Below, in pieces: positions 31,490 to 55,649 of a stretch of DNA of 64,000 bases; position 1 is the stretch's first letter, and every line of letters begins with the position of its first letter. The translations under genes and the position numbers were made by a program. Under the pieces are notes generated by a model. The model was not told where the DNA came from and made no database searches. It worked only from the letters and a program-made list of their open reading frames with translations. This DNA is from a virus. The stretch covers positions 1 through 64,000 of IMG/VR virus record IMGVR_UViG_3300027708_000030. The stretch is one strand, 5' to 3'.

Positions 31490-31498
31490 AACAGAAAC

Positions 31499-31570
31499 AC
31501 ATTGATCATCTAATTGGTCAGGATGGTGTTCATAAGGCACTAAATGTAGGTTCGACTCCTACTCAGTGTG
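31499..31570 (+). tRNA. aberrant tRNA-like gene, CAT in an enlarged anticodon loop
   Basis: Acceptor ACATTGA pairs with TCAGTGT (31563-31569), T8, D stem ATCT/GGAT and T arm GTAGG TTCGACT CCTAC are all normal, but the best anticodon stem TGGTG/CACTA leaves a nine-base loop TTCATAAGG; the alternative seven-base loop TCATAAG lacks U33. No CCA is encoded, unlike its neighbours. Either a decayed tRNA or a tRNA with altered decoding. A tRNA-Met(CAT) origin is possible. Confidence 0.5.
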
Positions 31571-31590
31571 TTTTTGTTTGGTAAAAATAT

Positions 31591-35202: not shown

Positions 35203-35276
35203 GCTCTGTTAGTTAAATGGTATAACAGTTGATTAGTAATCATCAATTGGGAGTTCGATTCTCTCACGGAGCACCA
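35203..35276 (+). tRNA. tRNA-Thr(AGT)
   Basis: Loop TTAGTAA in GTTGA/TCATC with one mismatch; acceptor GCTCTGT/ACGGAGC; CCA encoded. A34 is unusual for a bacterial threonine tRNA. Confidence 0.8.
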
Positions 35277-49597: not shown

Positions 49598-49714
49598 ATG
49601 TTAGACACTCTATTTTGGATAGCACTTGGTGCATTTGTTGGTTGGAATTTTCCACAACCTTTCTGGGCAAAAATTATTCAAGAAAAAATTCAATCGATGA
49701 TTGCTAAAAAGTAA
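49598..49714 (+). CDS. 38-residue TM protein
   Basis: Begins after SD CTAGGAG. One TM segment (TLFWIALGAFVGWNF), C-terminal basic helix. Sits directly after the endolysin, so it could be a lysis partner; short proteins of this kind occur in T4-like phages. Confidence 0.6.
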   Translation: MLDTLFWIALGAFVGWNFPQPFWAKIIQEKIQSMIAKK

Positions 49715-50097
49715 TGGCTTATTCCGATAAAGTTATCGACCACTATGAGAATCCACGTAATGTGGGTTCTTTGGATAAAAACGATCCATCGGTTGGTACT
49801 GGAATGGTTGGTGCACCTGCGTGTGGTGACGTGATGAAGTTGCAGATTAAAGTTGAAGATGGAATTATTACCGATGCAAAATTCAAAACATATGGATGTG
49901 GATCTGCTATTGCAAGTTCCTCTCTTGTTACCGAATGGGTTAAAGGCAAGACATTGGAGCAAGCAGCAGTTATTAAAAATTCAGACATTGCTCAAGAACT
50001 CGCATTGCCCCCAGTCAAAATCCATTGTAGCATCCTTGCTGAAGATGCCATCAAAGCAGCAATAAACGACTATCAACTAAAGTGTGCGTGCGTATGA
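49714..50097 (+). CDS. iscU: IscU-type iron-sulfur cluster scaffold
   Basis: 127 residues, the size of E. coli IscU (128). All functional residues are present: C37 and D39 (ACGD), C62 (GCGSAIA), the HscA-recognition motif LPPVK (98-102), H104 and C105. It would assemble 2Fe-2S clusters on its own or with host IscS/HscAB. It is followed by an IscA-type carrier overlapping by four bases, so the two work as a unit. Clients might be phage or host Fe-S enzymes. Confidence 0.93.
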
Positions 50098-50405
50098 TTA
50101 CCGTAACAGAATCCGCAAAGAAACAACTCGATGAGATCCTAATGGATGATGTATCGATGAAATATGTAAGAGCATTCATCACTGGTGGTGGTTGCTCTGG
50201 TTTTAATTATGGGTTTACACTTGAAGCAGATAAAGAAGAAGATGACTTCGTTATTGACAATCTTGTAGTTGATGCCATGAGTATGCAGTATTTTGACAAC
50301 GCTACTATAGATTTTACTAGTGATAAATTAAAAGGATCTCAATTTGTTATATCAAACCCAAACGCAAAATCAACCTGTGGATGTGGAAGCAGTTTCTCAG
50401 TCTAA
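50094..50405 (+). CDS. iscA: IscA/ErpA-type iron-sulfur carrier
   Basis: 103 residues from ATG 50094. The three ligand cysteines are present: C34 in [10 protein letters not shown], and C95 and C97 in CGCGSSFSV at the C-terminus. A-type carriers pass Fe-S clusters from the scaffold to apo-proteins. Directly coupled to iscU. Confidence 0.92.
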
Positions 50406-50406
50406 A

Positions 50407-51060
50407 GTGAAAACATTTATACATCATGATTTCGGCAAACTTGAACGTGACACAAAACCCGATGGTACAAGGTTATATAAAACCCCATCGGGTAAATCCT
50501 ATCCCTCCGTTACGACAGTTACAGGATTGCACTCAGCAAAGGGAATCCTGGAGTGGCGAAAAAGAGTCGGAGAAGCAGAAGCAAACCGAGTCTCCGCAAA
50601 AGCCAGTTCCAGAGGTACAAGAATCCATCAACACTGTGAAGACTTTCTCCTTGGAGAGCATGTTGAGCCAGATATGTTTGATGCAGAGATGTTCAACTCA
50701 ATCCGACCACTCCTCGACCAAATCGACAACATCCACTGCTTGGAGACTCCACTATGGTCTGACCATTTACAAGTCGCAGGAACAGTTGACTGTATCGCAG
50801 AGTTCCAAGGTAAACTTTCGGTTATAGATTTTAAGACATCTAGTAAACCAAAAGATAGAGATGATATCCATAACTACTTTATGCAGACTGCAGCATATGC
50901 AGTAGCATTTGAAGAACGAACTGGTATTCCTATTGGAAGACTTGTAATTATTATGGCAGTTGATAGTGACGATCCAAGATGGTTTATCGAGAAACGAGAC
51001 AATTGGATTGGTGGTTTTAAAAAACTGCGATTAGACTATAAGAATTTAAAAAACATTTGA
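50407..51060 (+). CDS. PD-(D/E)XK (RecB-family) nuclease
   Basis: 217 residues from GTG 50407; the frame is open upstream into iscA but this is the first start after it. VAGTVDCIAEFQG, then LSVIDFKTSSKP and FMQTAAYAVAFEER give the PD-(D/E)XK core with the QxxxY motif. Similar to Cas4/MGME1-like exonucleases of T4-like phages. Roles in recombination or host DNA degradation are plausible. Its stop lies in the -35 of the tmRNA promoter. Confidence 0.82.
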   Translation: MKTFIHHDFGKLERDTKPDGTRLYKTPSGKSYPSVTTVTGLHSAKGILEWRKRVGEAEANRVSAKASSRGTRIHQHCEDFLLGEHVEPDMFDAEMFNSIRPLLDQIDNIHCLETPLWSDHLQVAGTVDCIAEFQGKLSVIDFKTSSKPKDRDDIHNYFMQTAAYAVAFEERTGIPIGRLVIIMAVDSDDPRWFIEKRDNWIGGFKKLRLDYKNLKNI

Positions 51061-51085
51061 CTTGTAACTAAATACAAGGTATAAT
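51057..51085 (+). promoter_or_regulatory. sigma70-type promoter of the tmRNA gene, with embedded CTAAATA
   Basis: TTGACT, 17 nt, TATAAT. The spacer contains CTAAATA (51067-51073), the late-promoter-like box, so it may be used both early and late. Confidence 0.85.
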
Positions 51086-51091
51086 GTAGGT

Positions 51092-51390
51092 TATTGCTGT
51101 ATGAAGCAAAGAGAAAAGTGTTCTGGACGGGAGTTCGATTCTCCCCACCTCCACCAGAAGTGCATGTGTTAGATGAAAGAAACCATTTTATGGGCTCTAA
51201 TGGGTGTACTTCTGATGGGGGTGACTAGGTTTCGACAGGGCAACAAGTACACAAGTGGACAGCACGACACAGAGAGTCGTAAAAAGTAAAAAACCGTAAA
51301 CGCAAACGACGCACAGTTCGCATTAGCAGCCTAAACACTGCTTAGGGTTTCGATAGGTTTCCTCGTAACAGAATAACCTATCACATTATT
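51092..51390 (+). ncRNA. ssrA: circularly permuted (two-piece) tmRNA gene
   Basis: Order is reversed relative to a normal tmRNA. First comes the 3' acceptor part: T arm GGGAG TTCGATT CTCCC (51129-51145), acceptor strand CACCTCC, A73 and CCA (51146-51156). An intervening loop follows, whose ends GAAGTGCA/TGTACTTC pair. Then the 5' part: acceptor strand GGGGGTG (51217-51223) that pairs with CACCTCC, the D-loop GGTTTCGACAGG, and the tag frame at 51302. Processing should yield two RNAs held together by base pairing. A hairpin GATAGGTT/AACCTATC (51352-51382) ends the coding piece. End points are approximate. Confidence 0.92.
51302..51334 (+). other. tmRNA proteolysis-tag reading frame
   Basis: Resume codon GCA, then the frame reads ANDAQFALAA and stops at TAA. 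ANDxxFALAA is the form found in many Burkholderiales tmRNAs; the C-terminal ALAA directs tagged proteins to ClpXP. Confidence 0.93.
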
Positions 51391-51406
51391 TTAAAAAGGG
51401 AATTAC

Positions 51407-51850
51407 ATGAAAAAAGTTATTTTAGTAACAGCATTAATGGCATCGATGGGTGCACAAGCAGTTGAACTAGGTATTAATGCAAGTCGTGATACTGCCAATA
51501 CAGATCGTACTGGTTATGGTATTACAATTGGACAGAAGTATGACAAAGTAGGCATTACAGCTGGCTTTGATCAATACAAATCTGGAATTGATATGAACAA
51601 GTATAGTTTAGTTGCTTCTTATGATGTTACCAAAGTTGGTGCAGCAACCATTGCAGTTAAGGGTGGAGTTGCCTACTTAGATCAAAAGAATACAACTGAT
51701 GGCTATGCAGCATTAGTTGGTGCAGGTGTTTCTTATCCACTAAGCAAACAAGTTGCTCTTACTGCTGATTATCGTTATCAAGCAGGACAATCTAAAGTTA
51801 GTTCTTTAGATGGTAGCACTATCATTGCTGGTTTGAAATATTCATTCTAA
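51407..51850 (+). CDS. outer-membrane beta-barrel protein
   Basis: 147 residues with a signal peptide (cleavage near AQA-VEL, residue 19). The mature part alternates polar and hydrophobic residues in about eight strands and ends in LKYSF with a C-terminal Phe, the BAM-recognition signature of outer-membrane proteins. Likely an 8-stranded OmpX/OmpA-like barrel. A phage OMP could block superinfection or alter the surface. SD AAGGGA. It is the first gene after the tmRNA. Confidence 0.8.
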   Translation: MKKVILVTALMASMGAQAVELGINASRDTANTDRTGYGITIGQKYDKVGITAGFDQYKSGIDMNKYSLVASYDVTKVGAATIAVKGGVAYLDQKNTTDGYAALVGAGVSYPLSKQVALTADYRYQAGQSKVSSLDGSTIIAGLKYSF

Positions 51851-52113
51851 TGAACATTTTGCCATTAAAGACGCAAGTATTGGTCGCTGAGAATAAAAAA
51901 GATGACACAACTGAGTCTGGCATTATTATTGAGGGTACTCGTGGTACTGGCATGACAGCCAAAGCCACAGTACTCGCAATTGGTCCAGATGTGACTGATG
52001 TTAAAATCGATGATGTTGTTTTGTTGGATTGGTCAAAGGCATCTCCAGTAAAAATTGGTGATGTGCAGAGAGCGATGATTAAAGAAGAATTTATCATCGC
52101 AGTGTTTGAATAA
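51850..52113 (+). CDS. 31: GroES-like co-chaperonin (gp31 equivalent)
   Basis: 87 residues. NILPLKTQVLVAENKKDDTT, then SGIIIEG (the mobile-loop end) and VLAIGPDVTDVKIDDVVL match GroES/Cpn10 rather than the divergent T4 gp31. It would cap host GroEL to fold the capsid protein. One-base overlap with the barrel gene. Confidence 0.88.
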   Translation: MNILPLKTQVLVAENKKDDTTESGIIIEGTRGTGMTAKATVLAIGPDVTDVKIDDVVLLDWSKASPVKIGDVQRAMIKEEFIIAVFE

Positions 52114-52831: not shown

Positions 52832-53341
52832 ATGCATAAACGATTATACAGTTTAGCAGCAATATTTTTAATAAGCATAACATTATTACTATGCACAGGT
52901 TTTTCAAAAGAAAAGATTATCGGTGTAACATATACACAACTGACACCAGAAGCCAGAACGCAAGTTGACTGTTTGGCAGAAAACATTTATTATGAAGCAG
53001 GATTTGAACCACGAGACGGAAAGATCGCTGTTGCAATGGTAACATTGAACAGAGTGCAAGATCCACAATTTCCAAAAGATATTTGCTCTGTAGTGAAACA
53101 AAAGGTAAAATCAACCTGTCAGTTCACTTGGTTCTGTGAGCACAAAACAATACAGAACAATTCAGTATACATGCAAGCAAGAGATATTGCATTGCTGGTG
53201 TATGCTAACTATGAAAAGATGCACGACATGACAGAAGGTGCATTATTTTATCATGCGGATTATGTTAATCCACGATGGAAACTTGAACGAACTGCAGTAA
53301 TCGGCAGACATATTTTTTATAAACAGAGAGATGGTATTTAA
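52832..53341 (+). CDS. SleB-like cell-wall hydrolase
   Basis: 169 residues. N-terminal signal/TM, then CLAENIYYEAGFEP with the catalytic Glu, AMVTLNRVQDP, KSTCQFTWFCE and GALFYHADYVNPRW: the Hydrolase_2/SleB family of lytic transglycosylase-type enzymes. Exported by its own signal, unlike the GH19 endolysin, so it may act from the periplasm during infection or late lysis. Confidence 0.85.
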   Translation: MHKRLYSLAAIFLISITLLLCTGFSKEKIIGVTYTQLTPEARTQVDCLAENIYYEAGFEPRDGKIAVAMVTLNRVQDPQFPKDICSVVKQKVKSTCQFTWFCEHKTIQNNSVYMQARDIALLVYANYEKMHDMTEGALFYHADYVNPRWKLERTAVIGRHIFYKQRDGI

Positions 53342-53342
53342 T

Positions 53343-53906
53343 ATGATGAACAAACTGAACATTCAACTTAAAGATAGCGGAGACGATTCAGCACACTCGT
53401 TTTATCTCCTTATGGAAGAAATATCATTACAGTCTGCAAAGACTTTAGTTGAATGGATCTTTGAAGCAAACTTTACTGAAGAACGACCAGATTTACTCAA
53501 TCTGATTATCTGTTCTCCAGGTGGTGACTTGAACGCTGCATTTGCAGTTATCGATACTATGAGAGGTTCAGCAATCCCTATTCGCACAATTGGTTTAGGA
53601 CAAATTGCTTCGGCAGGATTAATGATCTTTCTTGCTGGTGACAAAGGGCATCGTATTCTCACACCGAATACTTCTATACTCTCCCATCAATACACTTGGG
53701 GTGCTTTTGGTAAAGAACACGAATTATTCGCAACGGTAAAAGAGTTTGACTTAACGACTAAAAAAATGATCACTCATTATAAAAAGTCTACTGGTCTTGC
53801 TGAATCAAAAATCAGAGAGGTATTATTACCACCTCAAGATATTTGGCTCAGTCCTCTTGAAGCCAAAAAATTAGGACTATGCGATGAAGTTAAAGAACTT
53901 TCTTGA
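53343..53906 (+). CDS. clpP: ClpP-like serine protease
   Basis: 187 residues from ATG 53343. Catalytic triad in ClpP order: S90 in GQIASAGLM, H115 in SILSHQY, and D166 in PPQDIWLSP, followed by the EAKKLGLCDEV end. Also the CSPGGDLNAAFAV oxyanion loop. No ClpX/ClpA gene is in the window, so it would rely on the host unfoldase or act alone. 2 kb from a tmRNA gene whose tag is a ClpXP degron. Confidence 0.88.
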   Translation: MMNKLNIQLKDSGDDSAHSFYLLMEEISLQSAKTLVEWIFEANFTEERPDLLNLIICSPGGDLNAAFAVIDTMRGSAIPIRTIGLGQIASAGLMIFLAGDKGHRILTPNTSILSHQYTWGAFGKEHELFATVKEFDLTTKKMITHYKKSTGLAESKIREVLLPPQDIWLSPLEAKKLGLCDEVKELS

Positions 53907-55134: not shown

Positions 55135-55641
55135 ATGACATTAAATGAACTCGCTACGAAAGAAGTAATCTTTCGCACAAATAAAACAGTCGTTGCAACC
55201 AAAGCACTAATCTCGATGGTTGAACATAAACCAATCAGAGATTATCTTAAAAAATGCATGGGTATTCCTATTGATAAACTTGCAGAATATGTTGGTGCAT
55301 ATTTACTTGGTCATCAACTAGTAGATGCAGTTGGGTTTGATACTCGCAAAGGAAATAAAAAATTAGAAATAAAATGGTCATTTTTGAATCGTACTCCCAG
55401 TAAAAATGGTAATCCCACTGCAAGTGCGAATATGTCCAATCTAAAATCAAAGTCTTGTGATTTGATGGTTTTCGTTTGCGATGATGAATTGAAACCAACA
55501 GATCATAATTATATTCGTATATTTTTGTTTCCAGCAAAGATTTGGAAACCATGTTGGAAGAATGATAAACACAGCATGTCTTTCGGTAGTGATAGACATA
55601 AATGGTATGACAAATACCAGTTGACATTAAATGATATTTAA
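55135..55641 (+). CDS. restriction-endonuclease-fold-like protein
   Basis: 168 residues. DAVGFDTRKGNKKLEIKWS contains a D...ExK arrangement typical of PD-(D/E)XK folds, followed by CDLMVFVCDDE. Possibly a phage nuclease; not a certain assignment. Confidence 0.55.
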   Translation: MTLNELATKEVIFRTNKTVVATKALISMVEHKPIRDYLKKCMGIPIDKLAEYVGAYLLGHQLVDAVGFDTRKGNKKLEIKWSFLNRTPSKNGNPTASANMSNLKSKSCDLMVFVCDDELKPTDHNYIRIFLFPAKIWKPCWKNDKHSMSFGSDRHKWYDKYQLTLNDI

Positions 55642-55649
55642 GGTATAAT
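55621..55649 (+). promoter_or_regulatory. sigma70-type promoter producing a leaderless transcript
   Basis: TTGACA, 17 nt, TATAAT, inside the end of the previous gene; ATG 55656 begins seven bases after the -10. Confidence 0.85.

Follow-up and report, generated by a model that had tools for sequence, protein, structure and literature searches.

The tmRNA genes of Bxz1-type mycobacteriophages and of Bacillus phage G are one-piece genes. Phage-encoded ssrA has been described in both of these, while mycobacteriophage DS6A carries a tRNA-like domain (PMC4131195), which lacks a tag and in this respect is unlike the gene described here. A tmRNA database holds 79 phage sequences (PMC11915505), and a 2021 count across phage genomes gave 53 tmRNA structures of the two-piece kind, all three two-piece lineages being shared with phages (PMC9004378). 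According to previous studies, permuted precursors are processed by RNase P and tRNase Z, the mature RNA has a two-piece architecture, and the ALAA ending of the tag is read by ClpX/ClpA (PMC3985003, PMC3968760). Among the closest described systems is Melnitz, a marine T4-like myophage of OM43 Methylophilales published in 2022, which possesses a two-piece tmRNA (PMC9004378).

The window analysed here, a stretch of 64,000 nucleotides, belongs to a T4-like virus record of 130,972 nt (IMG/VR record IMGVR_UViG_3300027708_000030), whose portal, major head protein, terminase, sheath and tube match PHROGs of those names. The closest phage DNA match is 72% over 357 nt, and there is no near isolate. 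ARAGORN detected 29 tRNA genes in the window, including two with unusual anticodons, Tyr-ATA (31498-31571) and Thr-AGT (35203-35276). The original prediction, made from the letters of the sequence, had placed a circularly permuted tmRNA at 51092-51390 and had named a covariance search as the check that could refute it. That search returned strong matches: RF01850 (beta_tmRNA) aligned over its full length to 51043-51388 on the plus strand with 136.3 bits (E 1.8e-41; gathering cut-off 84 bits), and in an Rfam covariance scan of the window RF04321 (tmRNA_permuted) also matched over its full length, with 129 bits (gathering cut-off 47). Independently, ARAGORN called a permuted tmRNA at 51064-51425 with the tag ANDAQFALAA, which is absent from the ARAGORN list. 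The agreement of two covariance models with the permuted ARAGORN call bears out a complete permuted tmRNA in the window, and chance or a mis-call was ruled out by the two models together with the covariation given below.

Among the models of permuted type, the beta model (136.3 bits) scored above the alpha (64.1 bits) and cyano (44.7 bits, below its own cut-off) models, and an alpha or cyano type was ruled out by these lower scores. With a score above the curated cut-off and the permuted order, the gene falls within RF04321; with a score above the cut-off and the best score of the three permuted types, it also falls within RF01850. All elements named in the original prediction (T arm, CACCTCC, CCA, closed loop, GGGGGTG, D-loop and tag frame) lie at the places given for them, and its range is near the limits of the transcript, with the promoter putting the gene start at about 51057. 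As far as sequence can tell, the window gene is thus confirmed as a complete circularly permuted (two-piece) tmRNA gene of betaproteobacterial type in a T4-like phage, carrying the features expected of a working ribosome-rescue RNA, of whose two pseudoknots the stems are borne out by covariation.

All parts of the gene lie on the plus strand. It is preceded by a sigma-70 promoter, TTGACT-17-TATAAT (51057..51085; -35 box 51057-51062, -10 box 51080-51085), which has 11 of the 12 consensus bases and ranks second among the sigma-70 matches over 9 kb of scanned sequence. Elsewhere in the window, a perfect consensus sigma-70 promoter, TTGACA-17-TATAAT, is present at 55621-55649. The end of the -10 box lies 32 nt upstream of the T domain; among 109 viral genes no distance is nearly as common as 31-33 nt, which 43 of the 47 bacterial genes have as well, and since this spacing is common to both, the bacterial promoter layout has been kept by the phages. 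Judging from the promoter spacing, transcription would start at about 51092. The acceptor piece (51092..51156), delimited by the ARAGORN 3' tRNA domain and the RF01850/RF04321 alignments, has a 5' end placed by the promoter and a 3' end given by the encoded CCA. It comprises the 5' strand of helix 2, which joins the two pieces (51095..51125; 51095-51099 with 51260-51264, and 51119-51125 with 51236-51242), the T arm GGGAG-UUCGAUU-CUCCC (51129..51145; 99% of alignment cells paired, with compensatory changes), the acceptor 3' strand CACCUCC (51146-51152), which pairs with 51217-51223, the discriminator A73 (51153) and the encoded CCA (51154-51156). Within the acceptor stem, U 51150 pairs with G 51219 as G3-U70, and the alanine identity set (G3-U70, A73 and CCA) is complete.

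The spacer (51157..51216, 60 nt) is closed by GAAGTGCA/TGTACTTC and is expected to be removed; its hairpin, GAAGUGCA.../...UGUACUUC, prolongs the acceptor stem. The coding piece follows (51217..51385, with an approximate 3' end; the RF01850 alignment extends to 51388) and contains the acceptor 5' strand GGGGGUG (51217-51223), the D-like loop GGTTTCGACAGG (51228-51239), the PK1 stem CGAC/GUCG (51265..51279; 80% of alignment cells paired, compensatory changes at 4 of 4 pairs), the tag frame and a 3' hairpin. The tag frame, GCAAACGAC...GCCTAA (51302..51334), identified by ARAGORN and by tag conservation, reads ANDAQFALAA and ends with a TAA stop. The 3' hairpin AUAGGU/ACCUAU (51353..51381; 98% paired, compensatory changes at 5 of 6 pairs) is probably the 3' pseudoknot, in which an upstream AGGG can pair with UCCU of the hairpin loop; this second pairing is kept in 89% of alignment cells.

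Similar to the window gene, the Melnitz tmRNA is a two-piece permuted tmRNA of a T4-like aquatic phage. However, it was reported to be alphaproteobacterial in type, whereas the window gene is of the beta type (136 vs 64 bits). The Melnitz tmRNA is linked to a glutamine riboswitch and located next to a transcription coactivator gene, while the window gene sits between an exonuclease gene and an OMP/GroES/ClpP region, and no riboswitch reached the Rfam gathering score anywhere in the window. The betaproteobacterial two-piece tmRNA (RF01850) shares with the window gene its gene order, promoter position, tRNA-like domain, PK1 and tag frame; named genomes in which the beta type was found are mostly Rhodocyclaceae/Accumulibacter. 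The betaproteobacterial genes are approximately 66-79% identical to the window gene over aligned positions, have a median spacer of 25 nt (vs 74 nt in phages), and carry ANDE-x tags and a terminator-like 3' hairpin. This hairpin, which stands at the end of RF01850, is deleted in the window gene, and the RNA may therefore run on into the downstream OMP gene.

A permuted tmRNA in a phage is not a first: besides two-piece phage tmRNAs such as that of T4-like Melnitz (PMC9004378), six cultured phages were found here by Rfam and/or ARAGORN to possess one. Phages DLP_6, BUCT-ZZ01, Axy11 and S-CAM3 scored above the RF04321 cut-off and QDWS595 above the RF01850 cut-off, while Rb1 has a permuted ARAGORN call with an RF01850 match below the cut-off. 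These six belong to other phage groups and have different tags where these could be read, and no locus common to them was found. The tmRNA is unannotated in the GenBank records of Achromobacter phage Axy11 (L103), DLP_6 (L294), BUCT-ZZ01 (L292) and QDWS595 (L102). The two-piece phage tmRNA is thus an already known type, to which the window gene adds a member, an old conserved lineage, and tags not present in the bacterial genomes searched.

The named structure, comprising 46 pairs, was tested for covariation in 28 diverged phage sequences. Overall, 93.3% of alignment cells are paired and 35 of the 46 pairs show compensatory changes, while slid structures gave 41-51% paired and none of 500 shuffles reached the real value. 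Both ends of helix 2 are paired in 100% of cells (4 of the 5 pairs at one end and 6 of the 7 at the other have compensatory changes), and its middle is poorly paired (43-71%). The two acceptor strands, although on either side of the spacer, vary in step among the phage relatives (CACC/GGGGGTG, CATC/GGGGATG, CAGC/GGGGCTG and CTGC/GGGGCAG); G3-U70 is kept in all of these variants and is present in 28/28 aligned sequences. In the spacer, the basal stem shows compensatory changes at 8 of 8 pairs, and 95% of the phage spacers, compared with 6% of shuffled ones, form a basal stem of at least 6 pairs. Conservation of this stem in a segment that would not be kept in the mature RNA suggests that it acts in folding or processing.

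The tag frame shows the same constraint. Its pattern did not arise by chance in 100 shuffles of the window. Among 100 phage tags of standard length, positions 1-3 (AND), positions 9-10 (AA) and the stop are invariant and positions 7-8 (AL) nearly so; synonymous codon changes are present at the conserved residues, while positions 4-5 vary freely. Because the pairing covaries and the fixed tag residues show silent codon changes, both the RNA and the tag frame are considered functional in this lineage, and the alignments indicate clear purifying selection on the phage tmRNA.

The same locus recurs in other phages. Upstream of the tmRNA, the window carries a PD-(D/E)XK exonuclease gene (50344..51060, plus strand; PF12705, phrog_298), whose TTG start is uncertain and whose end overlaps the -35 box of the tmRNA promoter. 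Downstream on the same strand are genes for a small outer-membrane beta-barrel-like protein (51407..51850; weak Pfam porin/OMP matches), a GroES-like co-chaperonin (51850..52113; PF00166, phrog_3188) and a ClpP-like protease (53331..53906; PF00574, 102.8 bits; PDB ClpP matches, E 7.5e-17), in which the Ser/His/Asp positions align with those of solved ClpPs. Across phages the order is fixed as exonuclease, tmRNA, cell-wall hydrolase and ClpP-like protease, the latter two being conserved downstream in sister loci. As well, adjoining IscU/NifU-like and IscA-like Fe-S cluster genes occur at 49714-50405 of the window and in a subset of the sister loci only. The beta-type T-arm/acceptor pattern was found in 100 viral stretches, nearly all of which are permuted tmRNAs. 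When phage loci were picked by the exonuclease alone, counting those with room downstream, 65 of 77 were closely followed, in the same orientation, by a permuted tmRNA; among the other 12, comparison of contig names placed a complete one at another position of the contig or locus in at least 8, and one more had a partial match.

In a tree of 156 genes, phage and bacterial sequences were separated by 2 label changes, compared with a mean of about 41 for shuffled labels, the bacterial side being a limited sample of 47 permuted beta-type genes. The one intermingled phage is the Alcaligenes phage QDWS595, which falls among cellular rows on a very long branch and is of unsure placement. A donor lineage nearer to the phages possibly exists outside the tree sample. 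The beta-type RNA would fit an origin from betaproteobacteria long ago, while recent capture from a host was ruled out by the tree and by the absence of the tag from genomes.

This absence also bears on whether the tag records the host lineage, as the FALAA ending had been taken to suggest. ANDAQFALAA-TAA, in all codon versions, was found in none of 84,980 bacterial/archaeal species genomes (one genome per species, TAA stops only), and the pattern is present in 65 viral stretches. Another pattern matched 45 bacterial places in the same genome set, and the search was therefore able to detect tmRNA genes. Two dubious ARAGORN calls excepted, the bacterial tags read are all ANDE- in permuted genes and ANDE or ANDN in one-piece genes, differing from phage tags mainly at positions 4-5. 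The FALAA ending by itself is common to many Burkholderiales. The tag as a host record was abandoned, being ruled out for positions 4-5; it is instead regarded as a property of the phage, because it matches 65 viral stretches and no genome, and bacterial tags are ANDE/ANDN.

We consider it highly probable that the gene is a functional permuted two-piece tmRNA of betaproteobacterial type, owned by the phage lineage and acting as follows. The near-consensus sigma-70 promoter would be read by host RNA polymerase, and the precursor would fold with its acceptor stem continuing into the spacer hairpin, a pairing borne out by covariation. As in known two-piece tmRNAs, RNase P would cut in front of G51217 and tRNA 3'-end processing would act behind the CCA at 51156 to remove the spacer. 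What remains would be an acceptor piece of some 65 nt and a coding piece of roughly 165-170 nt, connected through the acceptor stem and helix 2. Host AlaRS would presumably charge the RNA, for which G3-U70 and A73 are present, and host SmpB, EF-Tu and S1 would load it on stalled ribosomes. SmpB is assumed to come from the host because none was found in the phage record: a search with PF01668 was negative in this 130,972-nt record, whose completeness is not established, and in nine sister records. A phage-encoded SmpB was rejected on this result, and the own SmpB expected of self-sufficient trans-translation is lacking in these records, which bears on autonomy and not on the identity of the tmRNA. 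Ala-ANDAQFALAA would then be added, and its C-terminal ALAA would direct the product to ClpXP, where host ClpX might possibly act with the phage ClpP-like subunit. The likely benefit would be that ribosome rescue and amino-acid recycling are kept going in lytic infection, beside the 29 phage tRNAs and GroES.

The proximity of the ClpP-like gene was also weighed as proof of coupling to the tmRNA and was rejected, the genes sharing a locus by descent in one group. Almost every sister locus has the ClpP-like gene close to the tmRNA, BUCT-ZZ01 has one that is unlinked, and ClpP-fold proteins of phages are often head proteases. The position of the gene 2 kb downstream favours another reading, in which the phage tmRNA mainly marks host proteins for degradation or retunes the adaptor/protease choice of tagged proteins. 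Phage tags indeed depart from bacterial ones mainly at positions 4-5, and the authors of the Melnitz study proposed host protein recycling (PMC9004378). However, tmRNA targets stalled ribosomes rather than chosen proteins, and the residues read by ClpX are unchanged. Positions 4-5, where the tags vary, are presumably those not contacted by SspB, and if so drift accounts for them as well; offensive tagging is therefore judged unlikely. Less probable still is a decoy, in which the phage RNA would tie up SmpB/AlaRS and block host trans-translation, as suggested for the DS6A tmRNA consisting of the tRNA-like domain only. The apparent lack of a phage SmpB would suit such a role, and DS6A-type RNAs inhibit the endogenous tmRNA (PMC11915505, PMC4131195), but a decoy needs neither the mRNA-like half nor the tag frame, and both are under purifying selection across the lineage. 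That the gene is no more than a functionless relic of a recent host-gene capture, such as an attachment-site fragment, is hardly credible, since, although tmRNA genes are common integration sites and pieces of them are sometimes carried by phages (PMC9004378), this gene is complete with its promoter, occupies one locus across a diverse T4-like lineage, shows strong compensatory evolution and falls in a separate phage cluster in the tree.

In addition to the functional tmRNA, some relatives carry small ORFs in the spacer. Ten of the 41 phage spacers of at least 85 nt possess an ORF that starts 10-11 nt past the CCA and ends at the last TGA (TAG in one), compared with 0.4 such ORFs on average when the spacer middles were shuffled. 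They comprise a 41-codon ORF (L015, L055, L063, L244 and L251), a 62-codon ORF (L224 and L269), and ORFs of 54 codons (L040), 32 codons (L049, with the TAG stop) and 26 codons (L034). A Shine-Dalgarno-like AAGGA or AAAGA often precedes the start, and the start region pairs with the 3' end of the spacer in 10/10 ORF-bearing spacers. Substitutions in the five-member 41-codon family are biased to the third position (e.g., 9/1/18 and 1/0/3 at codon positions 1/2/3); genes for relatives of this membrane protein are found within spacers or immediately before tmRNA genes, and in some cases at other places. The 62-codon cassette is found in four contigs, always within a tmRNA spacer, while the T arms, acceptor stems and tags around it differ; for the 54-codon ORF, a 76% relative was found that is not part of a tmRNA. 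A nested ORF was also looked for in the 60-nt spacer of the window gene, which has none. It is rather likely that the spacer of the permuted tmRNA serves this phage lineage as a site for housing small protein genes, in which case processing would release a mini-mRNA. ORFs in tmRNA spacers were not reported in the literature searched, the coverage of which was partial.

In L315, L323 and L326-L329, the tmRNA is immediately preceded by a relative of the 41-codon protein, whose stop codon coincides with the beginning of the acceptor piece or lies close to it. Mosaic tmRNA genes (L269/L224, L241/L005, L265/L016 and 13 other pairs) have spacers that are 91-100% identical with at least one flank at 75% or below, and L089 and L043 share a near-identical tmRNA gene with the tag/3' part swapped.

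Finally, judging from the sister loci, small protein genes can apparently be accommodated in the spacer of a permuted RNA gene, an arrangement that we did not find described. As for the permuted tmRNA itself, it is no occasional capture: a widespread T4-like phage lineage has long inherited it as one of its core genes, and the tags are its own. With this, the replacement of host ribosome rescue by the phage during infection, as well as the reason for the variation of its tags, become testable.
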